A stretch of DNA of 31,373 nucleotides, taken from positions 1 to 31,373 of the IMG/VR virus record IMGVR_UViG_3300032282_002675; one strand, given 5' to 3'. This document shows positions 5,472 to 23,393 of the stretch, one piece after another (position 1 is the stretch's first letter; every line of letters starts with the position of its first letter). The translations under genes and the position numbers were made by a program. This DNA is from a virus. The notes beneath the pieces are model-generated. The model had not been told where the DNA came from and did not search any database. It was given only the letters and a program-made list of their open reading frames with translations.

Positions 5472-5764
5472 AGCTTTAGTTCCTTTTTAATAAACTCGAT
5501 ACCTTTCTCAAAATGGTACCGCCAGTGCTTTTCAGTCACATGAATGTCATTATAACTCAAACCATTTAGAAACGCCAGTAAAACTTCTTGGGGTTTAGGC
5601 GGCATATGGTGTTCAATAAGATAACGAATGTCCAGTATGTCCTCTGGGTCCCATGGAAACCAGCCTTCAATGAGTTGTGTGGATGTCCCCTCCACATCAT
5701 CTTGCTCTAATGGATCTGGATCCTCATCAGATAGTCTCGGAGTAGTTGCTTTTATTTTATTCAT
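5468..5764 (-). CDS. hypothetical protein with sigma-region-4-like HTH, 98 aa
   Basis: The N-terminal half is acidic and probably disordered (DEDPDPLEQDD). The C-terminal half, about residues 54-96, reads PPKPQEVLLAFLNGLSYNDI followed by a recognition-helix-like segment and EKGIEFIKKELKL. This parallels the layout of sigma region 4 (Glu-Val-Leu...GLSY-Ile...helix...Leu). It could be a DNA-binding regulator. It follows the ketosynthase gene with an ATGA overlap. The match is by eye to a short motif, so confidence in the function is low. The phage sigma factor at 13,886-14,473 lacks region 4, which makes this small protein worth testing as a partner. Confidence 0.5.
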   Translation of the reverse strand: MNKIKATTPRLSDEDPDPLEQDDVEGTSTQLIEGWFPWDPEDILDIRYLIEHHMPPKPQEVLLAFLNGLSYNDIHVTEKHWRYHFEKGIEFIKKELKL

Positions 5765-10638: not shown

Positions 10639-12959
10639 CAGAACACCCCTTCTTCGTCAATCAAGTTCTCGTCAACATACTTCTGAGCTTTTTCGTTGAG
10701 CTTTACGCCACGGTAGATGTGTTTACGCACACCATTGGCTCTCAGTAAATCTGATTCTACCATGTGTTCTTGGGTTGATGCAAGGAAGCGACGTTTAAAC
10801 GATTGCTCAGTACCAAACGGCATGTTCTTCTTTATCGCCCAGTGTTTAAAGCAAGCAAAGACTTCATCCTTGCCAACTGTGCCCATCGGGTCAAACTCAA
10901 GGGCTTCATCAACAAACGCACCAAGGGGGTTGCCCAACTCTGCCATAACATCAAGCAAGTCTTTACCACTATCAGGTTGTAGAAAGTAACCACCACGTGC
11001 AATCCTGCGTTGTAACCCGACCATCGCCCAGTTAAAGATGCCTGATAATTCGTTGGTTAGTTTGTGTGATAAGTCTGTGTCTTCCTTGTTGTAGAAAGAC
11101 TTGGTCATCTTTAGCACGATCATGCGCCCGGTGAGTGCGTTGGAGTTTTCTGTTAGCTGAAGAACCTCGTTACTGTATATAACAATGCGAGTAGGCAGAT
11201 AGCCGTTCCAAGCCTCTTTGTTCTTACGGTTAACAGTAATGGTGTCGCCACCCACAATACGAAGAAGCTGAGATACAACAGAAGATCTGTTTCGCTCAGG
11301 TGCTCTTGCGTCAGTAAAAGAAGCGAGGAGCTTACCAAGCCAAGGCTGCAAACCAAAAGTATCACAAAGTTCTCCTAATTCAGGTGCGACTGTGTTATGT
11401 TGCCCAAGTAGGCTGACTAGCACTTTATTGATTGTGCCTTTGCCTGAGCGACGTGGACCGATAATGTTAAAAAACTTCTGCTGTCGGGTATCGCCTGACA
11501 GGATGTAACCAAACATCTCTTGCAAGGTGTCTTGTGACTGTTGATCCTCAGGCCACACAGATGATAGAAATGCATCCCATGTTGGGCAAATAGCGTTTGG
11601 GTCATAAGCAAACGGCAGTGAGTTCTGTGTGTAAAAACCCAGTGAGTGTGGAATCATCACTTGGTCTTCCAGGTGAAACAAACCATTTTCTAGGCTAATG
11701 AGCTTAGACGCATCGGGCTTGTTCTGCTTGTATGAATCAAACCATATCGGTGGTCGTGTGTTTGCGTGGTTGGGTAAATGCACAATCGACTTAACCGCAT
11801 CTAACGCACCCGACACACTTGCTGGAGCTGGATTGAACGAAATCAACTCACCCTTTTTACCTGACTTCTTGCACTTGTCTAGAAACTTATAGGTCTCAGA
11901 GCGAATGGTTGCCTCTTCGATGATCTCGTAATGAGTGCCTACATACGCATAAAAGTCGTCTGAGTAATGCACCAGCTTGTAACCTTCTTCGCAAACAAAG
12001 TGGTTGTCTAAAAAGGTACGGGCATGGTTCATCGCCCCGTTATCTAAGATAATCTCGCCACGTGCTAGGGCTTGCTTTCTTTCAACTTGGTTAATCTTAA
12101 ACAGCAGTGAGCGCAAAGTTGCCCCTGAGCCTTTAAAGGTTGACCACTTCTTATCACAAGCATTTGGTGTGTAGTTAGGCACTGAGCCATCCCCATACGA
12201 CCATCTATCCCACAACTCCAAGGCTTCCATATCGCCTGAGAACTGGTGGTGTAGAGCAAAGCCTACATTGAGCCAGTTTGTGTAACCTTCCGATGGATCT
12301 AGGTTGGCAAGGACTTCGGTCTCTACACGATGGATATCATACCCCTCAACTGGCGGAGTGTAGTCTGCAAACGAATCGCCTGTCCTACGAATTTCCCGAT
12401 CGGGAATAACGCTACTTAAGTCTTGGAGGTCTGAGGGAACTACGCCACTGATGTGATGCCCCGTAACAGTGAAGTACCTGCCCTTTGGATAGAACTCAAA
12501 ACCTTTGTCGTGGTCGACATGGGAGTTATGGGTATCTGCCCTTGTAAATATCTTTACCCCTGTGCCAGATGGACTAACTTCCATGTAACCGTGCACAGAT
12601 TCGGCAATTTGCTGCAGTGCAGCATCTGTGAAACTTTGGGTTTGGTGGTCGTAGCAATCATCTAAATCAATGCCCACCAGATTGTCATCTCCGCTAAATA
12701 CAAACCCGACACCATCAAAGCGGTTAGGTTGGTTGATGTATGCGTTTTGGACTGTTAGGAAGTCTGCCCATGTGTTAGGGTTGGTTGATGAGGCTGATTG
12801 ACCTGATGGCTGGGTTGGCAATTTAGACCAGCGTTTGGTTATTTCGTCGCCAATCTCTACATATCGCCATAAAACCCACCTTGGAATCATCTTCAATTCC
12901 ATTGGTATATTGTCAAACTGAACTGGTAGTGTGTGTGGTTTTGTGTTCATAATTTTCAT
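10638..12959 (-). CDS. primase-polymerase/SF3-type helicase
   Basis: A 773-residue replication protein. Residues about 25-190 form a primase-polymerase domain of the type seen in phage NrS-1: metal-binding Asp98 and Asp100 in VGIDLDDC, then YMEVSPSGTGVKIF and FYPKGRYFTVTGHH. A PriCT-2-like domain follows (NWLNVGFALHHQFSGD...LWDRWS). The C-terminal half is a D5/P4-type helicase with Walker A GPRRSGKGT near residue 500 and a Walker B/sensor region (ASFTDARAPERNRSSV, then VIYSNEVLQLTE). It is probably the main replisome protein; no separate family A or B DNA polymerase was seen. The start lacks a Shine-Dalgarno and stands seven bases after TGCATTAGTA. Confidence 0.9.
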   Translation of the reverse strand: MKIMNTKPHTLPVQFDNIPMELKMIPRWVLWRYVEIGDEITKRWSKLPTQPSGQSASSTNPNTWADFLTVQNAYINQPNRFDGVGFVFSGDDNLVGIDLDDCYDHQTQSFTDAALQQIAESVHGYMEVSPSGTGVKIFTRADTHNSHVDHDKGFEFYPKGRYFTVTGHHISGVVPSDLQDLSSVIPDREIRRTGDSFADYTPPVEGYDIHRVETEVLANLDPSEGYTNWLNVGFALHHQFSGDMEALELWDRWSYGDGSVPNYTPNACDKKWSTFKGSGATLRSLLFKINQVERKQALARGEIILDNGAMNHARTFLDNHFVCEEGYKLVHYSDDFYAYVGTHYEIIEEATIRSETYKFLDKCKKSGKKGELISFNPAPASVSGALDAVKSIVHLPNHANTRPPIWFDSYKQNKPDASKLISLENGLFHLEDQVMIPHSLGFYTQNSLPFAYDPNAICPTWDAFLSSVWPEDQQSQDTLQEMFGYILSGDTRQQKFFNIIGPRRSGKGTINKVLVSLLGQHNTVAPELGELCDTFGLQPWLGKLLASFTDARAPERNRSSVVSQLLRIVGGDTITVNRKNKEAWNGYLPTRIVIYSNEVLQLTENSNALTGRMIVLKMTKSFYNKEDTDLSHKLTNELSGIFNWAMVGLQRRIARGGYFLQPDSGKDLLDVMAELGNPLGAFVDEALEFDPMGTVGKDEVFACFKHWAIKKNMPFGTEQSFKRRFLASTQEHMVESDLLRANGVRKHIYRGVKLNEKAQKYVDENLIDEEGVF

Positions 12960-13032: not shown

Positions 13033-13231
13033 ATTTGTCAGGGTTGTCAGGGTTTGATTTTTTTGTGTTTCCATTTTTACGCTCCAATAAAATCAAAGAC
13101 TTACAAGCGATTTGTCAGGGTAGTATGGGTAGTACCCCTCTAAATGACTTTTTCTAGATTTTTAAAAAATAAAAAATAAATATTCTAGACTAACTGCGTT
13201 TAAACCCTGACAACCCATACTACCCTGACAA
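13033..13231. repeat. left TTGTCAGGG array, origin-like
   Basis: Three direct TTGTCAGGG units (13,035, 13,044, 13,112) face two inverted units (CCCTGACAA at 13,205 and 13,223) across an AT-rich core of about 60 bases (13,143-13,200). The unit at 13,112 continues into TAGTATGGGTAGTACCCC, which contains a GGGTA-G-TACCC palindrome. The layout (repeats flanking an AT-rich stretch next to a primase-helicase gene) is what one expects of an iteron-type origin or a strong operator. A larger relative is at 23,068-23,381. With the 3' end of the small gene at 13,233, this accounts for the gene-free stretch 12,960-13,232. Confidence 0.75.
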
Positions 13232-13232
13232 T

Positions 13233-13367
13233 TTAGATACAAGTTACTACACCTTGCATCACGATGCAGGGCTTCGGACCCCCTTCAGCAGGGTTAAAAA
13301 TAAGGATTTCAGCCATTGAGACTGTGCTAAACGATAGAAACGCCAATAAAATCAATAACTTATTCAT
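13233..13367 (-). CDS. small secreted protein, 44 aa
   Basis: A very short gene with a clear signal peptide: MNKLLILLAFLSFSTVSMA, with a likely signal peptidase cleavage after Ala19. The mature part has about 25 residues with two cysteines (Cys34 and Cys43) and ends in VTCI, suggesting a disulphide-bonded periplasmic peptide. The ATG at 13,367 forms an ATGA overlap with the upstream stop. It is the last gene of the leftward accessory block before the repeat region. Similar tiny exported proteins occur in other aquatic phages; the role is unknown. Confidence 0.65.
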   Translation of the reverse strand: MNKLLILLAFLSFSTVSMAEILIFNPAEGGPKPCIVMQGVVTCI

Positions 13368-13561
13368 TTTAATACCTCATATCCAAGTTGGTTAATCATT
13401 CTGTATGCCCATTCACGGAACTTAACGCGGTTATCAGATGTTTGTTCATCCCGCGGATCCCATACTACCTGTACTATAAATTCACCTGCACCATCGTGAA
13501 AGTCAATTTTAGCCATGTTGCCATCACCAGCATATACATCGGTTGGTATTGCCTTTTTCAT
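13364..13561 (-). CDS. hypothetical protein, 65 aa
   Basis: Not recognised. A soluble protein with alternating beta-strand-like segments (AKIDFHDGAGEFIVQVVW) and a C-terminal helix (FREWAYRMINQLGYEV). It has ATGA overlaps at both ends. No catalytic motif was seen. Confidence 0.6.
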   Translation of the reverse strand: MKKAIPTDVYAGDGNMAKIDFHDGAGEFIVQVVWDPRDEQTSDNRVKFREWAYRMINQLGYEVLK

Positions 13562-13893
13562 TTGTCCTCCTTTAGTTTTGAATAGCTGTCCGTTACGCCA
13601 CTGTTTCTATCTTCCCATGAGTCTTGTGTACCATAATCACCTCGGCTCATACGCATCCGATCTCTGTCCCTAAATGCGGGTTCGATTGCCAGCCAGGCAG
13701 CAAACGCTTCTTTATACTCCAGCCAGTCGTCATTGGCTATATACATGGGGTGGTTTAAACCCGTTACATCCACACACGCTAGGATGTCTTTGAGGGGTAT
13801 CCATTTGCCTCTACGCTTGACAATGCCCACCTTATCCCTTGCAGTTATAAAGCGGTCATATGCTCTTTTCTGCTCCGGTGTTAAATCAATCAT
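13558..13893 (-). CDS. hypothetical protein, 111 aa
   Basis: Not recognised. It begins MIDLTPEQKRAYDRFITAR, followed by a strand-rich middle (KWIPLKDILACVDVTGLNHP) and an Arg/Asp-rich, probably disordered tail. Its start overlaps the sigma factor stop by 8 nt and it is coupled to the next gene by ATGA. It contains one GTTTAAAC, read as Leu-Asn. Confidence 0.65.
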   Translation of the reverse strand: MIDLTPEQKRAYDRFITARDKVGIVKRRGKWIPLKDILACVDVTGLNHPMYIANDDWLEYKEAFAAWLAIEPAFRDRDRMRMSRGDYGTQDSWEDRNSGVTDSYSKLKEDK

Positions 13894-14473
13894 CGTTGTT
13901 CTCCTCCATGAATTTTTCTTGTTTTAAGTTATTTAGTGAAACAGGTTCTTTGCTGATGTGGCTTTGCAACTGGTGTATCTTCGCTTCAGATATTCCCATA
14001 ATGGTCGACAGTTCAGCAGTCTTGGGTTCACGACCCAGTATTTGAGACAGATTACGCTTGTTGTAGTTAAGCCTTTTAATCTGTTCCATAATGTTAATTG
14101 GTAGCCTAATGAGGTTGGATGTGTTATCTAGGTCACGCCTGACACCCTTCTCAATGAACGACTTTGCGAATGTGGCAAACCTTGCGTTGTTCTTTGGCTT
14201 CCATCTTCTTGCTGCCATAAACAAAGCCTCGTTGCCCATCGCCAGCATATCTTCGACAGGCACTTTGCCATGATGCCAAGCCGTCATCTTACGCACTATA
14301 TAAACCACAAAGCGTAGGTTGTGGGTGATGAGCTTTTCTAGGGCTTCATCATCTCCAGCTTGTATCTGTTTGGATAACTGGTGTTCTTCCTCTATGGATA
14401 GGGGTTCAACACCATATAACGATTGTAGGTAATCACTTAGTAAATCATTTTCTTTCACCTGTTGTTCCTTCAA
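13886..14473 (-). CDS. sigma-70-type RNA polymerase sigma factor lacking region 4
   Basis: A 195-residue sigma factor. Region 1.2 is at about 12-43 (DYLQSLYGVEPLSIEEEHQL). Region 2 is at about 47-120, with the core-binding NLRFVVYIVRKM and the -10 recognition part RWKPKNNARFATFAKSFIEK. Region 3 follows at about 128-170 (EQIKRLNYNKRNLSQILGR...TIMGISEAKIHQLQ). The protein ends shortly after in EENNDD, with no region 4, so it should not read a normal -35 element. T4 gp55 is a known precedent in which a separate protein supplies the region-4 role. It probably directs transcription of a phage gene class, possibly from the TGCATTAGTA elements. The start overlaps a small membrane protein gene by 29 nt. 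Confidence 0.88.
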   Translation of the reverse strand: MKEQQVKENDLLSDYLQSLYGVEPLSIEEEHQLSKQIQAGDDEALEKLITHNLRFVVYIVRKMTAWHHGKVPVEDMLAMGNEALFMAARRWKPKNNARFATFAKSFIEKGVRRDLDNTSNLIRLPINIMEQIKRLNYNKRNLSQILGREPKTAELSTIMGISEAKIHQLQSHISKEPVSLNNLKQEKFMEENNDD

Positions 14474-14609
14474 ATAGGTATTGCAGTAAATTAGGGAAAA
14501 CCATGACAGTCCCTACAATTATCATGGCAAGCAATCCCCATGTAACCCCACCACCATGGTTGATGGCAGATATGCTGGTAAGCACTAACAAAAATCCAAT
14601 GTATTTCAT
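14445..14609 (-). CDS. small membrane protein, 54 aa
   Basis: MKYIGFLLVLTSISAI begins a first hydrophobic segment and TWGLLAMIIVGTVMVF a second, with a short polar C-terminus. This is a likely two-pass inner membrane protein. The ATG at 14,609 makes an ATGA overlap with the upstream small gene, which supports it as real. The 3' end runs 29 nt into the sigma factor gene. Function unknown. Confidence 0.55.
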   Translation of the reverse strand: MKYIGFLLVLTSISAINHGGGVTWGLLAMIIVGTVMVFPNLLQYLFEGTTGERK

Positions 14610-14770
14610 TTTTCAACTTTCAATAAGTTTGTTACAATTCTACCACAAAAAAGGTCAATTTGTCGAGGAAATTCAAAATAGGTTAAGTCCTTATGGGAAA
14701 ACTTAAAAATTTTTTTGTGTTCATCCCCCTGTTTAAACGCTGTGCGATGGTCTGCCCCCTGTTTAAACAT
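14606..14770 (-). CDS. hypothetical protein, 54 aa, FKQG repeat
   Basis: A short gene with overlaps on both sides (TGATG upstream, ATGA downstream). The N-terminus has two copies of FKQG (MFKQGADHRTAFKQGDEHKK), each encoded by GTTTAAAC followed by AGGGGG. The rest is basic and aromatic. The repeated DNA word therefore creates a repeated peptide. No function was recognised. Confidence 0.55.
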   Translation of the reverse strand: MFKQGADHRTAFKQGDEHKKIFKFSHKDLTYFEFPRQIDLFCGRIVTNLLKVEK

Positions 14771-14898
14771 CACATCACCGCCTCACCTAGTTGTTTAAAC
14801 AAGGTGTCAAAGGTAAATTTTTTTGGCTTTCGTTTTGGCTTAGGTGGTTGTTTCCACAATAGCTCACCAAAATCATCGTATCTGCTATTCGATGACAT
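14770..14898 (-). CDS. hypothetical basic protein, 42 aa
   Basis: A short Lys/Pro-rich protein: MSSNSRYDDFGELLW, then KQPPKPKRKPKKF, then TFDTLFKQLGEAVM. It starts 14 nt before the upstream stop and ends in a TGATG overlap. The proline-lysine stretch suggests a flexible, nucleic-acid-binding or protein-binding peptide. No homologous family was recognised. Confidence 0.5.
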   Translation of the reverse strand: MSSNSRYDDFGELLWKQPPKPKRKPKKFTFDTLFKQLGEAVM

Positions 14899-15232
14899 AA
14901 TAGACATTCTCCGATACTTTTTGCCCTACACCATCGATAGTCGTGCCTGATTCGCATATCTGCAAGACTGCGATTCTCTCTTTAACCCATTGGGGCATAG
15001 ACCCTATGTTTAAACGATCTTTGGTAGGTAAATTTTTTTCTGTTGCGGGCATGGCAAAACTATACATTGCAACTGTGTCATCATCATGGAATCTAACCCG
15101 CCACACCTGTTCTAGCGGGTGGTTTAAATCTTCTGCGATCATCATTCTGAAATCGCTAGGGCTTATAGTCGGGCTTTTACCCTCCATGATGATCTCATCT
15201 ATGCGTTCTATGCTGATACTGCTCTGTGCCAT
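14885..15232 (-). CDS. hypothetical protein, 115 aa
   Basis: Not recognised. A soluble alpha/beta protein beginning MAQSSISIERIDEIIMEGK, with VWRVRFHDDDTVAMYSFAMP in the middle. Its ATG follows directly after GTTTAAAC, whose TAA is the stop of the preceding gene. No Shine-Dalgarno is evident, so reinitiation after the upstream stop is the likely way it is translated. Confidence 0.65.
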   Translation of the reverse strand: MAQSSISIERIDEIIMEGKSPTISPSDFRMMIAEDLNHPLEQVWRVRFHDDDTVAMYSFAMPATEKNLPTKDRLNIGSMPQWVKERIAVLQICESGTTIDGVGQKVSENVYYVIE

Positions 15233-15234
15233 GT

Positions 15235-15432
15235 TTAAACTGCTCTCATGATGTCATAAACTTCTTTGGTAATCTCATCATAATTATCGGTATTAGTATG
15301 CACAAATCTATGTGCATCATCTCGCCATATTTCAAAACTGCGTGAGGGTTGCATACCCATCTTCGCAAAGTTTGGAAGATCAGCAACACCCGTAAAGTTT
15401 CCACTTTTATGCACAAAGTATCTTCTAGTCAT
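15235..15432 (-). CDS. hypothetical protein, 65 aa, ITKEVxDIMR tail
   Basis: A small protein with a beta-rich body (MTRRYFVHKSGNFTGVADLP) and the C-terminal helix DEITKEVYDIMRAV. The same tail ends the upstream gene at 15,435-15,638, so the two probably arose by tandem duplication or share a tag. The stop codon is the TAA within GTTTAAAC, and the next gene starts two bases later. Function unknown. Confidence 0.6.
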   Translation of the reverse strand: MTRRYFVHKSGNFTGVADLPNFAKMGMQPSRSFEIWRDDAHRFVHTNTDNYDEITKEVYDIMRAV

Positions 15433-15434
15433 GT

Positions 15435-15638
15435 TTAAACACCCCTCATTATATCAGCAACTTCTTTGGTTATCTTAGTTATTTCGTGGTGTGCGGTTCG
15501 TAAAGTTTCAAAGTATGTTTCACCATTAACATTTATATGAATATCCACTATGCCACTATTGGCATAGATCGACCATACTTGACCGACTATGCCATCGTTG
15601 CACACCACCCAATCGCCAATGTCTAGGCAATTATCCAA
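15435..15638 (-). CDS. hypothetical protein, 67 aa, SH3-like, TTG start
   Basis: Starts with TTG at 15,638, overlapping the preceding gene by 16 nt; no ATG is available in frame until the last residues. The pattern GDWVVCNDGIVGQVWSIYANSGIVDIHINVNGETYFE suggests a small SH3 or KOW-like beta barrel, and ITKEVADIMRGV forms the tail shared with the next gene. It ends with GTT TAA inside GTTTAAAC. It is similar in plan to the 46-residue protein at 20,336-20,476. Confidence 0.55.
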   Translation of the reverse strand: MDNCLDIGDWVVCNDGIVGQVWSIYANSGIVDIHINVNGETYFETLRTAHHEITKITKEVADIMRGV

Positions 15639-16459
15639 TACGCACCATCATTCTCTTTTAAACCGATGTCCTCTACAAACTCTTGCTTGTCTGTAATATC
15701 TAGCACAAACAACTTGCCTTTGATCTCATCAGGTAGGGCATCTTTAGATGGCACTATAAATGGCATCTGACCTTTGGTAGAGTTTAAACGATACTGCACC
15801 TCGTTGTCTTTAACCAATACAAAATAGTGATCGGGATTGTAATTGACATACTTCTTAATGTCCTCTTGGTTTTGCACCAAGTATGCGACCATCTTCTCTA
15901 CTTTGGGGTTCACAAAATTATGCCCTTGATAATGCAACTCAATTAAATCCTCTTTGAATGTGTCGATGTCCGAACAAGTGTTGTTGCGTAAATTCCATGA
16001 GGCACGACTGCCAATCGAATCAATCTCTTGCCGAAACTTTCGTCTTGCCCTGTCTGCAATTTGATCGAATGTGAATGGTTTAAACACCTTCTTAGCTACC
16101 CGCACAATGTTTTTGCTATGGATAGAGTATTTGTATGCACCTTCGCCCCCGTATGTATGCCTACCATCATCGATGTTGATGCTAGTAATGCCATACTTGG
16201 GTTTGTGTCTGTCGCAATTATTGTAGTAATTTGATACCTCCAAGATACCGATGTGGTTGTTCAGATCGCTAGAATGGAAAGCAAATACTGAATCACAAAC
16301 ACCATTGGGGTATTCCTCTTTAACAACTCCCCATGTATTTATGTTATGGTGTTTAAACGATATGTTGGGCATCACCTTAGCAATGTCGTTCATGAGGTTA
16401 GACAAAAACTCTACTGTGTCTATGCCATTGATGTTTACTGTTTGTATTTTGTTTGTCAT
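15623..16459 (-). CDS. hypothetical protein, 278 aa
   Basis: Not recognised. A soluble protein with no membrane segment or known motif. The N-terminal half is beta-rich with many Asn/His/Tyr residues (GILEVSNYYNNCDRHKP). The middle is helical and basic (DQIADRARRKFRQEID), and the C-terminal third is again beta-rich (HYFVLVKDNEVQYRL). It carries three GTTTAAAC sites. Its neighbour of 316 residues has a similar Tyr/Asn-rich style. Both may be phage-specific accessory or DNA-associated proteins, but nothing in the sequence decides this. Confidence 0.7.
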   Translation of the reverse strand: MTNKIQTVNINGIDTVEFLSNLMNDIAKVMPNISFKHHNINTWGVVKEEYPNGVCDSVFAFHSSDLNNHIGILEVSNYYNNCDRHKPKYGITSINIDDGRHTYGGEGAYKYSIHSKNIVRVAKKVFKPFTFDQIADRARRKFRQEIDSIGSRASWNLRNNTCSDIDTFKEDLIELHYQGHNFVNPKVEKMVAYLVQNQEDIKKYVNYNPDHYFVLVKDNEVQYRLNSTKGQMPFIVPSKDALPDEIKGKLFVLDITDKQEFVEDIGLKENDGAYWIIA

Positions 16460-16460
16460 C

Positions 16461-17411
16461 TTATCTATACCAATTCTTATATCTGTCGTGGGTTAGTGTT
16501 CCAAGTGGCACTTCTGTTTTCTTACATGGTTTGACAATCCTAAATAGATCGTTGCATATCTCTTTAGGCAACTTGTGTCGTTGATATGTATTGCTATTGT
16601 TTCGGTAATCATACCCTGTAATTCTATGCTTGTAGCGTTCCACCATACCTAACCACCCATCAGGCACACTACCATCTTTGGCTGGTTTAAACAATGCTAT
16701 CGCCTCCTCTGCATACATCATTCGGTCATCATTACCGACAACTGCTTTATAGATTGGGTTGCCATAATCCCATCTGCCACTTCCCTCTACAATGTTGTTC
16801 ATGAGATCAAAGTATTCCATGAATGGTTTAATACTCTCACGCAACTGCTTTGTCTGTGTGCGGTCTATGGTGTGTTTAAACTCCCTATGCACCACTAGCG
16901 GTAGCCAATGCTTTTCGCCCACCTTGCGTTGGAATGTAATATCGCCCAACTCGATAGAATAAAACTTATTGTCATAGCGAACATACTTACTAGCACGATG
17001 GTTTACCATTCCAAATTCAGTCGGCAAATTGAAATCATAAAACCAAAATGTTGATGATGACGAAAATGCTCTAGGGTGCAAATCCATTGATGGTGTTGAA
17101 CCCCATACTTTTTTAGGGGTGTGGATTATCATGGTTTCCATGTCCCCGTTTAAACTCCATGTAATCGCTTTGTTGTGAATGGTGCGATGCGTGTAGTAAT
17201 CGAATGTAATGTAATACTCTGTATCGCTTACCTTAATCATGCGTTCCCATGCCCGATCTCTGCGATTGATAGGGCGAATGTTCTGCTCTTTGCGTTTACC
17301 CCGTAATGGGACTGTATCTTCGTAATGCTTTTTGATTCTCTCAAAATCAAATCTTTGACCTTGATTGTTTTGCACATCGTATGGACTGCACGAATGTCTA
17401 TAATATCCCAT
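16461..17411 (-). CDS. hypothetical protein, 316 aa
   Basis: The start is placed at ATG 17,411 (MGYYRHSCSPYDVQN), which has AGAGAG eight bases upstream and follows the preceding stop by one base; the longer frame would begin with TTG at 17,429. A soluble protein rich in Arg, Tyr and His, with an N-terminal basic part (VPLRGKRKEQNIRPINRRD) and a beta-rich central part (WYFDFN-type aromatic strands). No known family was recognised. It contains three GTTTAAAC sites, read as Phe-Lys or Leu-Asn. It sits between the VWA protein operon and the 278-residue unknown. Confidence 0.7.
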   Translation of the reverse strand: MGYYRHSCSPYDVQNNQGQRFDFERIKKHYEDTVPLRGKRKEQNIRPINRRDRAWERMIKVSDTEYYITFDYYTHRTIHNKAITWSLNGDMETMIIHTPKKVWGSTPSMDLHPRAFSSSSTFWFYDFNLPTEFGMVNHRASKYVRYDNKFYSIELGDITFQRKVGEKHWLPLVVHREFKHTIDRTQTKQLRESIKPFMEYFDLMNNIVEGSGRWDYGNPIYKAVVGNDDRMMYAEEAIALFKPAKDGSVPDGWLGMVERYKHRITGYDYRNNSNTYQRHKLPKEICNDLFRIVKPCKKTEVPLGTLTHDRYKNWYR

Positions 17412-17412
17412 G

Positions 17413-17577
17413 TTAATTCTCTCTTTCAATATCGTAAATTGCTAACCATTGTTTAAACACTTCGGGGTATGCCCCTTGAATCCAATCGTATAAATGTATC
17501 GGGGGCGATTCGTCTTTGCTAAGACTATGCAATCTGTCCTCGATCTGTTCATTCACCCACCAATCGTCATCATACAT
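17413..17577 (-). CDS. hypothetical acidic protein, 54 aa
   Basis: The start is ATG 17,577 (MYDDDWWVNEQIEDRLHSL), one base after the VWA gene stop and behind GAGGTG; a longer frame to 17,688 runs through the VWA gene and was not used. Acidic, helical, with WIQGAYPEVFKQWLAIYDI at the end. The pattern resembles small phage proteins of unknown role. One GTTTAAAC is read as Val-Phe-Lys-Gln. Confidence 0.6.
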   Translation of the reverse strand: MYDDDWWVNEQIEDRLHSLSKDESPPIHLYDWIQGAYPEVFKQWLAIYDIEREN

Positions 17578-17578
17578 A

Positions 17579-18733
17579 TTACACCTCGATCTTGATGGTT
17601 TGACCAATCGGGGACTTGATGTCGCTTGTGATTGTCCACAATGTAGGACAATTCCAATTACCACCCCAATCGTTGCCAACATAGCCATCGGTCAAAATAA
17701 TGGCACATACTGGGTCAATCTTATGCTTTGCCATGTAGCGTGTGATGCACGATGGACTTGTGCCACCACCACCTTTGGGCTTGGTTGTTGATGTCATGCG
17801 GTCTGCATCGTTTAAACCATATACCTCATGCCCCGCCACTTGTGAATCCCAATAGAGAAGATCAACTTGTTCGGGGTTCATGTTTTGCATAACACTAGCC
17901 ACCTCACTAATGAATCGGTTTAAGACATCACCATAAATACTGCCCGATGTATCAATAGCCACAACAACTCTACCCATTGATTCGCTAACAGTCGATGGCA
18001 TATAGATGTCATGTTGTAGCCATCTGCGGTTAGGTTTTCGCCATGTTGAATCGTCTTTACCTTGCGATACGCTAGACACAAACTCCCTTAGTGCCTCTTT
18101 CCAATCTACTTTGGCACTCATCAGGTCGGTGAAACTGCGGTCAATGTTGCCACCTACCTTACCCGCTAAGATTGCACCTTGTCTGATTGCTTGGTCGATC
18201 TCTTTGGCTAGGGCGGTTTTCTCATCCTCGTTTAAACCATCTGCCCCATCCCAATCGTGTTCGTCAAAACCCCCGCCACTACCCCCGCCATCTTGCGGTT
18301 GGGTTGGCAATAAGGCAAACACCTCGGCTGAGTTTAAACCACGATACTTTTCGTCAATCAATGCCCCATCGGGTAGGACTACAAACCTCTGCGACCTTTC
18401 CGATTCGTCTTTGATCTCTAGGTTAATAACATAATCACAAGCCATATTCGCCCTGTGTGGGTCTTGCTTGTGTAGATGTTTCCAAGTAAGTAGATGGCGA
18501 TACATCTTATGCTTTGCCTCATGCAAGATCAAACCCCGCAACTGTGGGTCGTTTAAACTCGCTACAAACCCTCTGCCAAATTTAACATCTTTGCCATTGG
18601 TGCAAGCGGTTGGTATGTTGTCATCGACCTTAGTTTCCCCGATCATCAAGATGCCCGAATAGGCAACAAATTGCGGGGACTTCATTAAGTCTATATGACA
18701 CCTTTCAATTCGTTGTTCTGCGGTCAATGCCAT
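17579..18733 (-). CDS. VWA-like protein with metallopeptidase-like N-domain (DUF2201 type)
   Basis: A 384-residue partner of the MoxR ATPase. The N-terminal domain has LILHEAKHKMYRH with His71, Glu72 and His75, the zinc-peptidase-like motif of DUF2201 proteins. A Gly-rich linker follows (QPQDGGGSGGGFDEHDW). The C-terminal von Willebrand A domain has the metal-site motif AIDTSGSIYGD near residue 260, then GGGGTSPS and ILTDGYVG. ATG 18,733 was chosen because GGAAAG lies just upstream. MoxR/VWA pairs act as ATP-driven chaperones or remodelers that insert metals or disassemble complexes. In phages the target is unknown. Four GTTTAAAC sites fall in the gene. Confidence 0.88.
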   Translation of the reverse strand: MALTAEQRIERCHIDLMKSPQFVAYSGILMIGETKVDDNIPTACTNGKDVKFGRGFVASLNDPQLRGLILHEAKHKMYRHLLTWKHLHKQDPHRANMACDYVINLEIKDESERSQRFVVLPDGALIDEKYRGLNSAEVFALLPTQPQDGGGSGGGFDEHDWDGADGLNEDEKTALAKEIDQAIRQGAILAGKVGGNIDRSFTDLMSAKVDWKEALREFVSSVSQGKDDSTWRKPNRRWLQHDIYMPSTVSESMGRVVVAIDTSGSIYGDVLNRFISEVASVMQNMNPEQVDLLYWDSQVAGHEVYGLNDADRMTSTTKPKGGGGTSPSCITRYMAKHKIDPVCAIILTDGYVGNDWGGNWNCPTLWTITSDIKSPIGQTIKIEV

Positions 18734-18911
18734 TATCTTTCCTTTCAAACCCTAAGTTTAAACAGTCTGCCATTCGTTCTGCACTCTTGGCACTCTTATA
18801 TGTTCGGTTATATCTTTCAAACTGATACTTACCATTTATCACCATGTTCCTACCGATACCAAACCTCTCGTCTGTATGGTCTAGTGCGTAGGCTTCCCAT
18901 TCAAATATCAT
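18705..18911 (-). CDS. hypothetical protein, 68 aa
   Basis: Not recognised. Begins MIFEWEAYALDHTDERF and is rich in Arg, Asn and Tyr (YQFERYNRTYKSAKSAERM). It overlaps the VWA gene by 29 nt and the upstream gene by 11 nt. One GTTTAAAC is read as Leu-Asn. It lies between the two halves of the MoxR/VWA pair. Confidence 0.55.
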   Translation of the reverse strand: MIFEWEAYALDHTDERFGIGRNMVINGKYQFERYNRTYKSAKSAERMADCLNLGFERKDNGIDRRTTN

Positions 18912-19122
18912 AATTTTCCTCGTAGGTTAGATATGGTTTAAACACCTTGCGATTTTCCCCAAATATATAAAACAATGGGTTTACTTCTGCCACAACTGCC
19001 CGCTTTTCTGCGGGTGTCGTGGCTTGCGTGATGCGATGTTGCATAGATTTTTGATAGACTTCCTCTATCAAATTGGCTCTGCGTTTTCGATAACCCAAAG
19101 TGTAATGCTTGTTCGGATTCAT
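18901..19122 (-). CDS. hypothetical basic protein, 73 aa
   Basis: The start was placed at ATG 19,122 (MNPNKHYTLGYRKRRANL) because it follows the MoxR stop by five bases and repeats the GTTTAA-AC-N-ATG junction used elsewhere in the block; an in-frame ATG at 19,170 would overlap MoxR by 43 nt. A basic helical N-terminus and an aromatic C-terminus (FYIFGENRKVFKPYLTYEE). No recognised domain. Confidence 0.6.
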   Translation of the reverse strand: MNPNKHYTLGYRKRRANLIEEVYQKSMQHRITQATTPAEKRAVVAEVNPLFYIFGENRKVFKPYLTYEENYDI

Positions 19123-19127
19123 AGCGT

Positions 19128-20207
19128 TTAAACACTCTGTGCGAATAGGTAATTGTTTGCGGTAGCCCATTTAATAAACCCCTGTGATGTGCCTACTGTT
19201 GTCTTTTTGCTTGTTCGCATGACGCTAGTAGCGAATAGCCCCTGTGCCTCTTTGGTTAGTCGATTCATGTATTCAATCCACTTGTTGATGTTGTCCTTTT
19301 CTACCTGTTGGATAGCGGAATAAACTAACATACAAACTGCACTCGGACTATCAGGCACTTTGGTCTTGGTTGGCTCTTTAATGATCTGTTCCCATGTTGG
19401 CAATTCGTCTGTTAATTGAATGATCGAGAGCATATCGTAGGTCGCACGATTACCGATTGTTCCTTTAAGTGCGTGTGCCATTATGTCGATGCCTAGTGGC
19501 TTAGACTTTTTGATAATGTCCGATGCCCTGTTTAAACTGCGTGGGGTGCAAAATGCGGGGCGGGGTGTGCGTGGGTCGTAGATGTATTCATTGTCTGATG
19601 GGTTGTTGAAATCCTCGAATGATGCCAACATCTGCGGGAATTGTTTTACAGTCATTAAAACTTCGGGGGTGATGTCGTTATCTAATGCCCATTCAATCCA
19701 CTCATCTGCTGATGGTTTACGCACCTTGACCACACTAATGCGGTTTCGTGCGTGGGGTGGTAGGTTGTCCCCTATTGCCTCGTTAGCTAGATTGGTTGTG
19801 GCAAATACTATCGAACCCTCGGGCAATGAATAAGTGCCTAGCTTGCGTTCTAGCATCAATCTAAGGCAAGCGTTCATTACTGCCTTTGATGCCTTGCCGA
19901 TCTCGTCTAACATTAAAACGATTGGCTTATCATGGTGAAATCCAAATTCCTCGTTAGGAATAAAAGAACATACCTCGGTGTTGTTTAAACTGCGTATCTT
20001 CGGGACTAGAAAATCACCGACATCTTTCGTAGTCATATCGCCATAACAAAAATGGTGCGTGGTGTTTAAACGATCATGCAAGATTTTAAGCATAGAGGAT
20101 TTACCTATCCCCATCTCGCCCTGTGCTAATACTGTTGTCGTATCCCCAACTGCGAGGATAAGGTCTGCGGTTTGTTGTAGTGAAAGCGATTTATATAAGT
20201 CTGACAT
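19128..20207 (-). CDS. MoxR-family AAA+ ATPase
   Basis: A 359-residue AAA+ ATPase. Walker A is GEMGIGKS (30-37), Walker B is VLMLDEIGKA with Asp101 and Glu102, followed by a sensor segment (IVFATTNLANEAIGDNLPPHARNRI) with the arginine finger region. Helical C-terminal lid. ATG 20,207 (MSDLYKSLSLQQTADLIL) was chosen over a frame reaching 20,312 because AGAGG stands seven bases upstream. It pairs with the VWA protein encoded just downstream, a classic two-component chaperone arrangement. The last codons are Gln-Ser-Val followed by TAA inside a GTTTAAAC site. Confidence 0.9.
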   Translation of the reverse strand: MSDLYKSLSLQQTADLILAVGDTTTVLAQGEMGIGKSSMLKILHDRLNTTHHFCYGDMTTKDVGDFLVPKIRSLNNTEVCSFIPNEEFGFHHDKPIVLMLDEIGKASKAVMNACLRLMLERKLGTYSLPEGSIVFATTNLANEAIGDNLPPHARNRISVVKVRKPSADEWIEWALDNDITPEVLMTVKQFPQMLASFEDFNNPSDNEYIYDPRTPRPAFCTPRSLNRASDIIKKSKPLGIDIMAHALKGTIGNRATYDMLSIIQLTDELPTWEQIIKEPTKTKVPDSPSAVCMLVYSAIQQVEKDNINKWIEYMNRLTKEAQGLFATSVMRTSKKTTVGTSQGFIKWATANNYLFAQSV

Positions 20208-20233
20208 GGTGTTGCCTCTCGTGGTTGGTTGGT

Positions 20234-20332
20234 TTACTGCTGAAAACTGGGAGTATATAGATCGGGTGCAAAACAAAAAACTAGGAATAACCCGATAAGT
20301 AATAAGGCACAATAAAAATCATCTTTAGTCAT
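20234..20332 (-). CDS. tiny single-pass membrane protein, 32 aa
   Basis: MTKDDFYCALLLIGLFLVFCFAPDLYTPSFQQ-type peptide with one hydrophobic segment (residues about 7-22). It starts two bases after a stop codon embedded in GTTTAAAC (GTTTAAAC-A-ATG junction), which argues for reinitiation and for a real gene. No function known. Confidence 0.45.
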   Translation of the reverse strand: MTKDDFYCALLLIGLFLVFCFAPDLYTPSFQQ

Positions 20333-20335
20333 TGT

Positions 20336-20476
20336 TTAAACATCCTCTAGGTGTTTTATGTTAGTAATCGTGGTGCTATGGGTATCGGGAAAGCGGATAG
20401 TAGCCCACTCGCCCGATATGCTCACGATCTCGACAATATCAAGCCCGCACCACAATGCTAGATCGCCCTTAGTCAT
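20336..20476 (-). CDS. hypothetical SH3-like protein, 46 aa
   Basis: A short beta-rich protein (MTKGDLALWCGLDIVEIVSI, then GEWATIRFPDTHSTTI) resembling the small barrel at 15,435-15,638. It overlaps the upstream membrane protein gene by 8 nt and ends with GTT TAA in GTTTAAAC. Unknown role. Confidence 0.5.
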   Translation of the reverse strand: MTKGDLALWCGLDIVEIVSISGEWATIRFPDTHSTTITNIKHLEDV

Positions 20477-20630
20477 CGTGGTTAATCCCAAAAATGACCC
20501 CTAAGGCAAATACTAGGGCGATCAATAGCAAGGTAGGTAGTGCGGGGGCATCGTCTATAACTGCCCCCAAAACTAGCATAATCATGCCTACTAAAATTGC
20601 CACAACTCCGATAAATATATTGTTTAGCAT
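20469..20630 (-). CDS. small two-pass membrane protein, 53 aa
   Basis: Two hydrophobic segments (about residues 5-24 and 31-49) with a short acidic loop (DDAPA) and a polar end (INHDD). It starts two bases after the GTTTAAAC that ends the upstream gene. Possibly holin-like in shape, but no lysis gene is adjacent, so this is not proposed. Confidence 0.55.
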   Translation of the reverse strand: MLNNIFIGVVAILVGMIMLVLGAVIDDAPALPTLLLIALVFALGVIFGINHDD

Positions 20631-20633
20631 TGT

Positions 20634-20837
20634 TTAAACTCCCTCTTGTTCGGTTTCGTCTATGGTTAATTCGCAACTGTCTAGCCAATCATCAAACCCG
20701 CAACTGTAAGCGATTGGGTCGCACTCTTTGAGAATGGTAGAGGCGGGAATGTCCATTATTTGATTCGGGTGGCACTCGTCTAGCATATCGTCATATTGTT
20801 GATAGGCTTCGGTTTCGTCAATGTATGTATATGTCAT
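20634..20837 (-). CDS. hypothetical acidic protein, 67 aa
   Basis: A strongly acidic protein with four cysteines and the pattern DPIAYSCGFDDWLDSCE in the C-terminal half, recognisable from small proteins of other phages with no known role. The ATG follows GTTTAAAC directly, and the gene ends with GTT TAA in the next copy. It resembles a DNA mimic in charge only; no evidence supports that. Confidence 0.65.
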   Translation of the reverse strand: MTYTYIDETEAYQQYDDMLDECHPNQIMDIPASTILKECDPIAYSCGFDDWLDSCELTIDETEQEGV

Positions 20838-20839
20838 GT

Positions 20840-21082
20840 TTAAACACTCCCTAAAAGATCGTCAAAATATTCCTGTGGTTGGTCGATTGCCTTTGCACCA
20901 TCTAGCCATTTATTGATGTGGCGGGTGGTTGTCATACTCCATTTTGTGCTTGTGCGGTTAAATGTATAAGTGCCTTTATCAAAACTTGCGACAGGGGTCG
21001 CATAACTGAATAAGACAATATGGGCGGGGGTTTCTAGTAGGGTCATGTTTGATGCTACGGGTTTAACTGATAGATTGGTCAT
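20840..21082 (-). CDS. hypothetical phage protein, 80 aa (SYxTPVA...RHI family)
   Basis: Contains the recognisable series FSYATPVASF, then KWSMTTTRHINKWLDG, then QEYFDDLLGSV, seen in many small phage proteins of unknown function. The mixture of strands followed by a helix suggests a compact DNA- or protein-binding fold. It ends with Val-TAA in a GTTTAAAC site, and the next gene starts two bases later. Confidence 0.75.
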   Translation of the reverse strand: MTNLSVKPVASNMTLLETPAHIVLFSYATPVASFDKGTYTFNRTSTKWSMTTTRHINKWLDGAKAIDQPQEYFDDLLGSV

Positions 21083-21129
21083 GGTTTATTGCCTTTCAAT
21101 TTTAAGGGGGTTTTTAGCCCCCGATTGGG

Positions 21130-21333
21130 TTAGATGGTGGGCTTGCCTAGCATATTGGCGAGATCGTTATAGACATCGGTTTTAGTGCCTTTTAGCCCTA
21201 ATTCCTTTTTAATGAGAGCATACATCGAAAGCCCTCGGGACATTCTTAAACCCTTGATCTCAAGCCCTAAGCCCCGCAATAAGGTGAGATATCTGAAGTG
21301 GGCTATCTGTGTTGGGTTGGTTAGCATTGTCAT
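21130..21333 (-). CDS. hypothetical phage protein, 67 aa (HFRYLTLLRGL family)
   Basis: Matches a common small phage family with HFRYLTLLRGLGLEIKGLR in the first half and a helix-rich C-terminus (YALIKKELGLKGTKTDVY). The short helical, basic design suggests DNA association. An AGG lies eight bases before the ATG. A GGGGG/CCCCC hairpin (21,106-21,122) follows the stop codon. Function unknown. Confidence 0.75.
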   Translation of the reverse strand: MTMLTNPTQIAHFRYLTLLRGLGLEIKGLRMSRGLSMYALIKKELGLKGTKTDVYNDLANMLGKPTI

Positions 21334-21337
21334 GGTG

Positions 21338-21508
21338 TTAGCCTTTCACTTGGTTGATTATGGTCATGCCCTGTAAGTATTGGGCGAATTGCCTAGCCTG
21401 TTTTAAAGTCTTAAAGGTGTGGATTTTATCGCCCGTTTTAATGGTGTATTTTATCGCCCTTGCTTTAAGGGTTTTGGCACTTGGGAACATATCGGTATGT
21501 TTTAGCAT
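21338..21508 (-). CDS. hypothetical basic protein, 56 aa
   Basis: A small basic protein beginning MLKHTDMFPSAKTLKARAIK and continuing YTIKTGDKIHTFKTLKQARQFAQYLQG, a strand-strand-helix pattern. AGGAAA lies about nine bases upstream. It ends four bases before the next gene. No family was recognised with certainty. Confidence 0.6.
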   Translation of the reverse strand: MLKHTDMFPSAKTLKARAIKYTIKTGDKIHTFKTLKQARQFAQYLQGMTIINQVKG

Positions 21509-21546
21509 GGTGTTGGTTTTCCTATTGGTTGGTGTTGTTTAAACAT

Positions 21547-21565
21547 GGCGGGGGATTGCCCCGCC
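21547..21565 (-). other. GC-rich hairpin after the SprT-like gene
   Basis: GGCGGGG and CCCCGCC form a 7-bp stem around a five-base loop, ten bases after the stop of the SprT-like gene. The next bases on the minus strand are ATGTTTAAAC, not a T-run, so it may be an attenuator or RNA-stability element rather than a full intrinsic terminator. Confidence 0.4.
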
Positions 21566-21575
21566 TGTTGGTTGG

Positions 21576-22226
21576 TTATTCCTCGCCATCATCGCCATTA
21601 TCCCACCAGTCAGTCTGACCGAATGGGCTTTCCATTGTGGAATTACAAGCGGGGCAAGCGGGAACGGCTACCTTTAGCCACTTGCTAGATATCCGCATGG
21701 TGTAGCCACACCCGCCATTGCGACAGACTGTTTTATACATACGGGTTGTTTGCTTGCGTAATTTGACATCAAGCGATGCATGGGGATATTGTCCTAATTC
21801 ATTGACCCATTCGAGAATCAGGGCTTTCAATTCCTCGCTTTCACTTGTGCTAGTCATTTTCCCAACTAGCCCAACAGCATTGGCACATTGTTTAAACACA
21901 TGGTCATGCCCATGCGATGCGTGATCGCCATTGACTGTGGCATGGCACAATTCATGAATCAAAGTGCCAACAACATCAATAGATTCAGACAGACTAGGCA
22001 CAATGATAATTTCGTGGTGATTGTCCCCCGATGCTCTAGGGCTTATACATTGACCCATCACAAATGATTTTTGGTGGCTCTTAGTGTGTGCCCCTTTGGT
22101 GCTAAAGGCACATGACATCCTGATATTGTCGGGGATGGTGTAGCCCGCTTTTTCAAAGTGGGGGCGAATGTATTGGGTAGTAATAGCGTTTAGCCATGTT
22201 TCCCGATTGGTGGTGATTGGTTGCAT
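21576..22226 (-). CDS. SprT-like zinc metalloprotease
   Basis: A 216-residue SprT-family protein. The active-site motif is LIHELCHATV with His91, Glu92 and His95, followed by DHASHGHDHVFKQCA holding the third zinc ligand. The C-terminal zinc ribbon has CRNGGCGYTMRI and CPACNS cysteine pairs. Related proteases (Spartan/SPRTN in eukaryotes) digest DNA-protein crosslinks; bacterial and phage members are less studied. It is the first gene of the leftward block, next to the divergent control region, so it is probably among the earliest expressed. It has one GTTTAAAC (read as Val-Phe-Lys-Gln) near the ligand helix. Confidence 0.85.
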   Translation of the reverse strand: MQPITTNRETWLNAITTQYIRPHFEKAGYTIPDNIRMSCAFSTKGAHTKSHQKSFVMGQCISPRASGDNHHEIIIVPSLSESIDVVGTLIHELCHATVNGDHASHGHDHVFKQCANAVGLVGKMTSTSESEELKALILEWVNELGQYPHASLDVKLRKQTTRMYKTVCRNGGCGYTMRISSKWLKVAVPACPACNSTMESPFGQTDWWDNGDDGEE

Positions 22227-22631
22227 AATGTTCTATTCCTTATAGGTTAGTAATCTAAAAAATGTGGTGATATTCCACACCACAATTACACCACACAAAA
22301 CCACGATTTGATTTCACATTGTGAAAAAGGTAGTAGGTGTTTACCCTAACTCCCACTAACCCTTATATCTATTGGATTGTGGGGGCTAAACCTATATATC
22401 TATTGGGCGAGGTGGCGAAACCTACCCGCTAACCCGCATGGCTATGGGATTCCTAGAGATTGTAAGGGGTGCTAGGCTACCCCCTTAAAAAATGCAATGG
22501 TGGGCTAAAAACCCTCTTAAAACGATTCCTATTGGATTCTCATAATGCGGAATGAATAGGGGTGCGATGGTGCGGAATACCCACAATAAGAGAGGGGTTA
22601 AACCTAGCCACCCTCGCACCCGCATCACCAC

Positions 22632-22726
22632 ATACCCACAATGCCAACATGGTTATTATGTTGCACCGCAACATGGCACATTGTTTAAACACCCACCCCA
22701 TATAACCATGTTGGCATTGTGGGTAT
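22632..22726. repeat. 25-bp perfect inverted repeat with nested hairpins
   Basis: Arms at 22,632-22,656 and 22,702-22,726 are perfect reverse complements over 25 bases, separated by a 45-base loop. The loop contains TGTTGC-ACC-GCAACA (a perfect 6-bp hairpin) and one GTTTAAAC. It could extrude as a cruciform or form a long RNA stem. It suggests an origin, a binding platform or a regulatory RNA. Confidence 0.8.
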
Positions 22727-22855
22727 TATGTTGCACCGCACAATGGCGTATCAAATATGTTGCACCGCACAAAGACCATGATGGCGTAATGGTTATGTTG
22801 CACCGCACCATTGTGCCTATGTTGCACCGCACCATATAGGCTATGTTGCACCGCA
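22658..22855. repeat. six copies of ATGTTGCACCGCA
   Basis: The 13-mer begins at 22,658, 22,728, 22,757, 22,795, 22,819 and 22,843, all in the same direction, with the last three spaced 24 bases apart. This regular, near-helical spacing suggests a protein-binding array. The related TGCACCG appears again at 23,031. Confidence 0.85.
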
Positions 22856-23113
22856 ATATGCGTTCCGCATTATGAAATGTCATACCACAATGCGAGATAG
22901 GGGGTTTAAACGATGAGGCAATACCCCTTTTTGCAGACCCCCCTCCCCCTGGCCCCGGGGGCCCCACAAAGCTCAAGTTTTTATAAATCCCGCAGCCGAA
23001 AATTTTTTTTGTAAAAATACAACACTTTTATGCACCGTTTTGGTGCACGGTAAAAACGCCACCTAAAATTTGTCAGGGTTGTCAGGGTTTGATTTTAAAA
23101 TTGTCAGGGTTTA

Positions 23114-23132
23114 AATGAGAATGATTCTCATT
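23114..23132. promoter_or_regulatory. Fur-box-like 9-1-9 palindrome
   Basis: AATGAGAAT-G-ATTCTCATT is a perfect inverted repeat, and its inner part TGAGAAT-N-ATTCTCA follows the 7-1-7 plan of Fur-type operators (TGATAAT-N-ATTATCA) with one symmetrical change. It lies between TTGTCAGGG units. Confidence 0.5.
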
Positions 23133-23320
23133 CACTTTATATGAATCAAGGAGTTACAAGGGAATTGTCAGGGTAGTATGGGTAGTACCCCTCTATATCA
23201 CTTTATTTTAAAATTTTAAAAAATATAAAAAATATATTATGGGTAAAGTGAGTTTAGACCCTGACAACCCTGACAACCCTGACAATGGGTTGCTAAGTTG
23301 TTGATTCATATGGGTCCAAA

Positions 23321-23335
23321 TGAGAATAATTCTCA
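23321..23335. promoter_or_regulatory. second Fur-box-like 7-1-7 palindrome
   Basis: TGAGAAT-A-ATTCTCA is the same palindrome as at 23,116-23,130 except for its centre base. The two are 205 bases apart, one on each side of the AT-rich core. It may be an operator for a host metalloregulator or a phage repressor. Confidence 0.5.
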
Positions 23336-23393
23336 ACAACTGCCCAAAATCAAACCCTGACAACCCTGACAACCCTGACAATTTTGAAATAAT

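Follow-up and report, generated by a model that had tools for sequence, protein, structure and literature searches.

The virus record IMGVR_UViG_3300032282_002675 of IMG/VR (positions 1 to 31,373, a stretch of 31,373 bp here called the window) contains 36 copies of the 8-bp palindrome GTTTAAAC, its commonest 8-mer. Copies are packed into one block (13198–22911), the same block that bears them in relatives. The block holds 32 of the 36 copies and 30 lie within 14,731–22,911; a recount of all three numbers, which come from a reading of the sequence made before this analysis (hereafter, the original prediction), found them exact. Within the block and on the minus strand is a gene (21576–22226) encoding a SprT-like protein of 216 amino acids (Pfam SprT-like, E 7.8e-7; phrog_6361), the proposed reader of GTTTAAAC. 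Three features of this protein are encoded on the same strand. Its translation has the metalloprotease motif HELCH at residues 91–95 (21942–21956). A zinc-ribbon-like domain at approximately residues 146–203 (21618–21791), which survives alone in other array-bearing phages, is the proposed DNA-binding part. Within that domain, residues 158–162 form the motif KQTTR (21741–21755), and residue 160 covaries with one letter of the palindrome. Arrays of GTTTAAAC and the SprT-like protein that accompanies them point to a widespread, apparently undescribed viral system of gene control or DNA organization.

Sites occur within and between genes. From the left, copies are located in a flanking repeat (13198–13205), a gene for 111 amino acids (13753–13760), a cluster of three (14731–14738, 14761–14768, and 14793–14800), and a gene for 115 amino acids (15008–15015). 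Three copies each are in genes for 278 amino acids (15782–15789, 16078–16085, and 16351–16358) and 316 amino acids (16685–16692, 16874–16881, and 17148–17155), and one copy in a small gene (17451–17458) precedes the four in the DUF2201/VWA gene (17810–17817, 18230–18237, 18332–18339, and 18551–18558). Beyond two small-gene copies (18756–18763 and 18936–18943), one copy overlaps the stop codon of the gene for the MoxR-like ATPase (19126–19133) and three are inside that gene (19530–19537, 19983–19990, and 20064–20071), the second of which is kept in 17 relatives (alignment column 343 or its neighbors). The rightmost copies are intergenic (21537–21544), within the sprT-like gene (21890–21897), closest upstream of it (22683–22690, 456 bp away), and last in the block (22904–22911). 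At four gene junctions, GTTTAAAC supplies a TAA stop and either abuts the next ATG (15233–15240, 15433–15440, and 20838–20845) or is 1 nt from it (20632–20639); at another junction (20334–20341), the next ATG is also 1 nt on. Copies had been thought to occupy all three reading frames. Inside genes they are read in two, as Phe-Lys and Leu-Asn, and the Val-stop copies are those at junctions.

The claim that this abundance is nonrandom held up, as dinucleotide shuffles of the window (n = 100) have a mean of 0.94 copies and a maximum of 3. Protein coding, which had been judged an insufficient cause, is rejected, with 18 copies in block genes versus a mean of 3.1 and a maximum of 8 after codon-preserving shuffles (n = 2000). 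Across 14.7–22.9 kb, there is on average one copy per 282 bp, spaced more evenly than random (coefficient of variation, CV, of 0.58 vs. 0.95 for random, P ∼0.001; CV of 0.45 in the densest core). The base 5' of GTTTAAAC is mostly a pyrimidine, in 69% of copies in the window and in at least 97% in the genomes of G029 and phages Pan1, R26L, and R5C, and the full word is YGTTTAAACR. Promoter-like matches in the block are no commoner than in shuffles.

Relatives of the Window and Conservation of Sites

Relatives gathered by their MoxR-like ATPase (19128–20312 in the window) comprise 80 viral loci. The nearest 26 are all enriched, with 7–40 copies of GTTTAAAC per locus around the same gene module. 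Relatives have up to 56 copies, and in their whole records sites are concentrated in ∼8–12 kb around the ATPase module. Loci of the next clade, with 67–74% identity in the ATPase, have zero copies, and remoter relatives have 0–2. The sister clade and the window share module genes but no phage backbone; that clade has 0–2 sites per record and lacks the SprT-like gene, which rejects the ATPase/VWA module as the cause of the array. The SprT-like gene itself is present in 25 of 26 loci of the site-bearing clade (the remaining locus is cut off) versus 0 of 54 site-free relatives. A near-match search of named phages found no match to the window. Some remote ATPase relatives without GTTTAAAC (L044–L046) have 12–15 copies of TTTCGTAC/GTACGAAA, a candidate iterated word.

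Sites are under selection. Conservation among relatives had been proposed as a check on the palindrome, and in codon alignments of four block genes, GTTTAAAC is exactly kept at identical amino acids in 95–100% of comparisons. Other 8-mers in the same test are kept in 17% (at 40–55% identity) to 36% (at 75–85% identity); the comparisons are nonindependent pairs, but the gap is nonetheless very large. Among distant relatives, sites turn over between positions.

Arrays in Unrelated Phages and Their Association with a SprT-Like Protein

Viral contigs were scanned for three copies of GTTTAAAC separated by gaps of 187–217 bp. The scan identified 55 stretches versus 6 for a control palindrome, CAAATTTG, whose loci have at most five copies each and no SprT, which rejects chance and composition as the cause. 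The majority of the 55 have no backbone protein in common with the window, cover a wide range of guanine–cytosine (GC) content, and have nonrepeated flanks; a few, L138 and L162 among them (three copies each), resemble chance hits. Because the sequence flanking GTTTAAAC differs at nearly every viral copy, unlike in cellular hits, the arrays are neither clustered regularly interspaced short palindromic repeats (CRISPR) nor tandem repeats. Applied to 84,980 genomes of bacteria and archaea, the same scan, whose pattern would miss sparse arrays, returned almost solely CRISPR arrays and other repeats, versus dispersed arrays in viral contigs. The suggestion that the block bears the imprint of a former host is not supported by this result.

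Named phages with arrays infect very different hosts. Copies of GTTTAAAC number 34 in Methylophilales phage Venkman, 16 in Pseudanabaena phage Pan1, 20 and 17 in Dinoroseobacter phages R26L and R5C, respectively, and 4–7 in a Jilinvirus-like group that includes Escherichia coli phage Bas97. The GC content of Pan1, R26L, and R5C is 0.62–0.63, and in Pan1 and R26L all genomic occurrences of TTTAAA fall within GTTTAAAC. Spacing is even across the entire genome of R26L. Pan1 (L260–L263) and R26L (L264–L267) also have a second dyad, ATAA-N5-TTAT (consensus TATAACTCGCTTATA; e.g., Pan1 56467), in 14 and 15 copies, respectively, with 0.01 expected in Pan1; one copy sits between GTTTAAAC and sprT.

When contigs are grouped by shared proteins, SprT-like is the one family found in 10 of 10 array-bearing groups. 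The runner-up is in 5 of 10 and also occurs in array-free phages. Where a contig of the first scan has no SprT match, it is short, a chance hit, or one of a group in which the remaining members carry SprT. No methyltransferase family is common to the ten groups at the sensitivity of BLAST, contrary to what a methylation mark, another suggestion of the original prediction, would lead one to expect. The association also holds in the opposite direction. A search by protein patterns of SprT only, in which related phages are counted separately, retrieved 80 loci, and 76 are enriched in GTTTAAAC (three or more copies and over fivefold the expected count). The window protein matches Pfam PF10263 with 29.4 bits (cut-off of 25.6), as do 21 of 28 aligned members at E ≤1. 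In the phage collection, 163 records of the family are labeled "SprT-like protease," "transcription elongation protein," or "hypothetical."

The C-Terminal Domain and the Change of Word

Losses of either part of the protein associate the arrays with its C-terminus. HExxH, absent in six array-bearing group members, is lost in one phage group, in which some members keep only a protein of 55–57 amino acids that corresponds to the C-terminal domain (e.g., MARHAAQENAVKQTTRLRKVLCEVDGYIARISRSTLITYGSPICPACNQPMREAR of L143, 55 amino acids). Contigs with an HExxH-less or 55–57-amino-acid protein still bear many copies of GTTTAAAC. The protease domain is dispensable for arrays. Bordetella phage FP1 and Pseudomonas phages Psa21-HRN and Epa5 are the reverse case, as they have a protease domain followed by a C-terminus without cysteines or KQxTR, and neither GTTTAAAC nor GTTTACAC, a one-base variant of GTTTAAAC, is in excess in them. 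AlphaFold2 models have a mean predicted local distance difference test score of 84 for the window protein and 83 for the 55-amino-acid protein; the latter is modeled as a beta hairpin, a short helix, and a CPxC knuckle. Foldseek matches of the domain are weak and of zinc-ribbon type.

Actinophages provide a third case. SprT-bearing actinophages have no GTTTAAAC, which at first contradicted the idea that SprT presence alone is sufficient; the contradiction was resolved by GTTTACAC. The region upstream of their sprT has GTGTAAAC or GTTTACAC, and the motif in their domain is KQGTR. Phages UtzChips, Mabodamaca, KeAlii, and Stuff have 23, 16, 22, and 42 copies of GTTTACAC, respectively (0.2–2 expected). 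It is the top 8-mer in all four, has Y..R flanks in most copies, and occurs in both orientations, except in KeAlii, where it is mostly in one. In Stuff it is evenly spaced across the entire genome. At GTTTAAAC loci, 86 proteins have S or T in the middle of KQxTR and 4 have G; at GTTTACAC loci, 5 have G and 1 has A. One to three events on the tree explain this joint change, which is hence suggestive rather than proof. Another word first noticed in actinophages, CGAGCTCG, is largely due to composition. In the Microbacterium phage UtzChips (L286–L288), CGCAA-N6-TTGCG is present in 6 copies versus 0.01 expected and is a candidate second operator.

These three natural experiments (protease loss, degeneration of the zinc domain, and the switch to GTTTACAC) point to the C-terminal KQxTR zinc domain as the reader. 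A packaging or recombination signal, as had also been suggested for the palindrome, leaves unexplained why the word tracks one protein family and changes a letter with it.

Placement of Sites Relative to sprT and Promoters

Sites are located upstream of sprT more often than local density predicts. In 15 of 20 phages, with relatives counted separately, the 100 bp that precede sprT contain a site, versus 1.7 expected. In Bas97, PT1, Arya, Mano, and Mica, the distance is 15–20 bp, and in Bas97 and PT1 the site starts 8 nt past a TATAAT. Likewise, in G020, TTGACC and TATAAT are separated by 18 bp, and GTTTAAAC begins after another 9 nt. In actinophages UtzChips and Mabodamaca, ten sites occupy the 17–18-bp spacer of promoter-like sequences (TTGCGC/TAnnnT); four sites in KeAlii are directly 3' of the −10. 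As read from sequence, these placements in spacers and at putative start points are those of classical repressors. Outside of sprT promoters and actinophages, sites were not found to follow −10 boxes as a rule.

Other Features of the Window

Four copies of GTTTAAAC are isolated from the block, in a DUF2800 gene (1288–1295), a ketoacyl-synthase-like gene (5982–5989), a primase gene (10793–10800; kept in 13 of 18 relatives), and a terminase gene (25846–25853). The second of these genes (5761–6870), with matches to a beta-ketoacyl synthase domain, is unusual for a phage. Direct repeats rich in TTGTCAGGGT bracket the block at 13033–13242 and 23068–23392, ∼10,050 bp apart, with identities of 100% over 29 nt, 81% over 89 nt, and 79% over 84 nt. 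Given these flanking repeats, the block may be an exchangeable cassette. A sigma-70-like protein with regions 1.2, 2, and 3 (13886–14473) adjoins the block and could direct the transcription of either the block or late genes. Upstream of sprT, a repeat with core TATGTTGCACCGCA is present in five copies (22628–22859) and is possibly another operator array. The block in the window and its counterpart in Venkman are probably early regions because they contain regulatory, replication, and small genes and not virion genes.

Discussion

Of the several explanations for the palindrome listed in the original prediction, binding by a nucleoid-like protein survives; a candidate protein can now be named. 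The identification of the SprT-like protein as the reader is strongly supported, and its binding to DNA is presumably direct. We think it likely that the protein binds GTTTAAAC via its KQxTR domain, represses promoters including its own, and occupies the intragenic array. The C-terminal zinc-ribbon-like domain would read YGTTTA(A/C)ACR, probably as a dimer on the palindrome. Binding in the −35/−10 spacer or over the start point would repress transcription, including that from the sprT promoter. In operons that are probably early, the evenly spaced intragenic array could hinder transcription through roadblocks or organize the DNA, in a manner like that of stoperators. A further role of the protease domain may be to clear proteins from the DNA or to inactivate the protein itself. 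More tentatively, and with somewhat less confidence than an even chance, we suggest a wider view. A repair protease of the SprT/Spartan fold may have been retooled into a sequence-specific reader whose sites are written through coding sequence, with word and reader coevolving (GTTTAAAC with KQS/TTR and GTTTACAC with KQG/ATR), and such readers may form a widespread class of phage nucleoid-type organizer and silencer.

Several observations weigh against the SprT-like protein as reader and repressor. The sprT of the window itself has no site within 100 bp upstream. In array-rich phages, sites are mostly intragenic and away from recognizable promoters; since they are also evenly spaced, promoter control alone is insufficient. 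Four clade-A type KQGTR proteins accompany GTTTAAAC; the word is thus not determined by residue 160 alone. The loci retrieved by SprT partly overlap the first set of loci. Lastly, no solved structure matched the zinc domain significantly in Foldseek or profile searches.

Sites could instead be addresses for the protease, with the SprT-like protein tethered along DNA to cleave or remove host silencers, crosslinked proteins, or defense proteins in the manner of a sequence-directed Spartan. Most members keep HExxH, SPRTN is a DNA-dependent protease coupled to a zinc domain that binds DNA (PMC12279946), and the genome-wide even spacing in R26L and Stuff suggests coverage of DNA. However, arrays remain where HExxH is lost or the 55-amino-acid zinc domain stands alone, and promoter-type placement is not predicted, which makes this explanation unlikely. 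Less probable still is a different reader, some small, fast-evolving phage protein such as a helix-turn-helix repressor, which would accompany sprT and have the SprT-like protein as its protease or neighbor. Short DNA-binding proteins can evade grouping by BLAST and actinophages encode a separate "DNA binding protein" near sprT, but that protein has no relative outside of those actinophages in our set and no second family is shared across groups. Furthermore, the motif stands before sprT itself and is lost along with the zinc domain rather than with the protease.

A mark like highly iterated palindrome 1 (HIP1), kept by a methyltransferase and a linked bias in repair or recombination, is very improbable. 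HIP1 and the alternate HIPs of cyanobacteria (GCGATCGC) are likewise 8-bp palindromes iterated in and between genes, coding sequence included, and kept against mutation (PMC4390886). But HIP1 is chromosomal and accompanies methyltransferases (PMC4390886), whereas GTTTAAAC is viral, accompanies a SprT-like protein, occurs at promoters, and in some phages keeps to a single block. The array-bearing groups share no methyltransferase, the word was not found iterated in cellular genomes, and such a mark predicts neither promoter placement nor a site before sprT. Least probable of all is a former-host imprint (foreign DNA) or a translation-start element at gene junctions, for although several window sites form the stop of one gene and abut the next ATG, and ATG follows the word in 18 cases versus 7.4 expected in the window clade, the ATG excess is missing in several array phages, sites are mostly intragenic, the scan revealed no dispersed array in a cellular genome, and the word is common to phages of Methylophilales, Pseudanabaena, Dinoroseobacter, and E. 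coli.

The proposed repression by the SprT-like protein has its closest parallel in the stoperators of cluster A mycobacteriophages, where repressors of L5 and TipsytheTRex bind more than 20 dispersed sites and are proposed to stop both initiation and elongation (PMC9283540). In both systems, a phage-encoded DNA-binding protein (here a candidate) has dispersed sites at promoters, as operators, and within transcription units. Numbers also exceed 20, with 36 in the window and up to 56 in relatives, and promoter sites are present in spacers and at start points in actinophages and at the sprT promoters of Bas97, PT1, and G020, though no such placement was seen in the window. Stoperators differ in being 13-bp, asymmetric, oriented with transcription, intergenic, and bound by a monomeric two-domain repressor (PMC9283540). 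Here, sites are palindromes or near-palindromes of 8–10 bp that are mostly intragenic and not consistently oriented, and the fold of the candidate reader is that of SprT. The order of a metalloprotease domain and then a zinc-binding domain is that of SPRTN, whose zinc domain binds single-stranded DNA (PMC12279946). In contrast, the binding proposed here is to double-stranded DNA and sequence specific, and the protease is dispensable in some phages.

We found no sequence-specific SprT protein in the literature searched. Nor did we find an open-access paper that links GTTTAAAC, GTTTACAC, or GTGTAAAC with phages in such a role (preprints and most subscription papers were outside of the search); a paper on cluster AZ phages names the SprT-like protease merely as a shared gene. 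Dispersed repressor sites are known, and what is new is the SprT-type reader, the intragenic palindrome arrays, and the coevolving words.

If true, the reading would provide a function for a family known only by the labels "SprT-like protease," "transcription elongation protein," and "hypothetical." It would also account for puzzling blocks of palindromes across phages that differ greatly in host and base composition. Cultured carriers exist, among them E. coli phage Bas97, Arthrobacter and Microbacterium phages, and Dinoroseobacter phage R5C, in which the reading is testable. A repair protease would have become a sequence-specific reader of DNA, in some phages after its catalytic part was lost.

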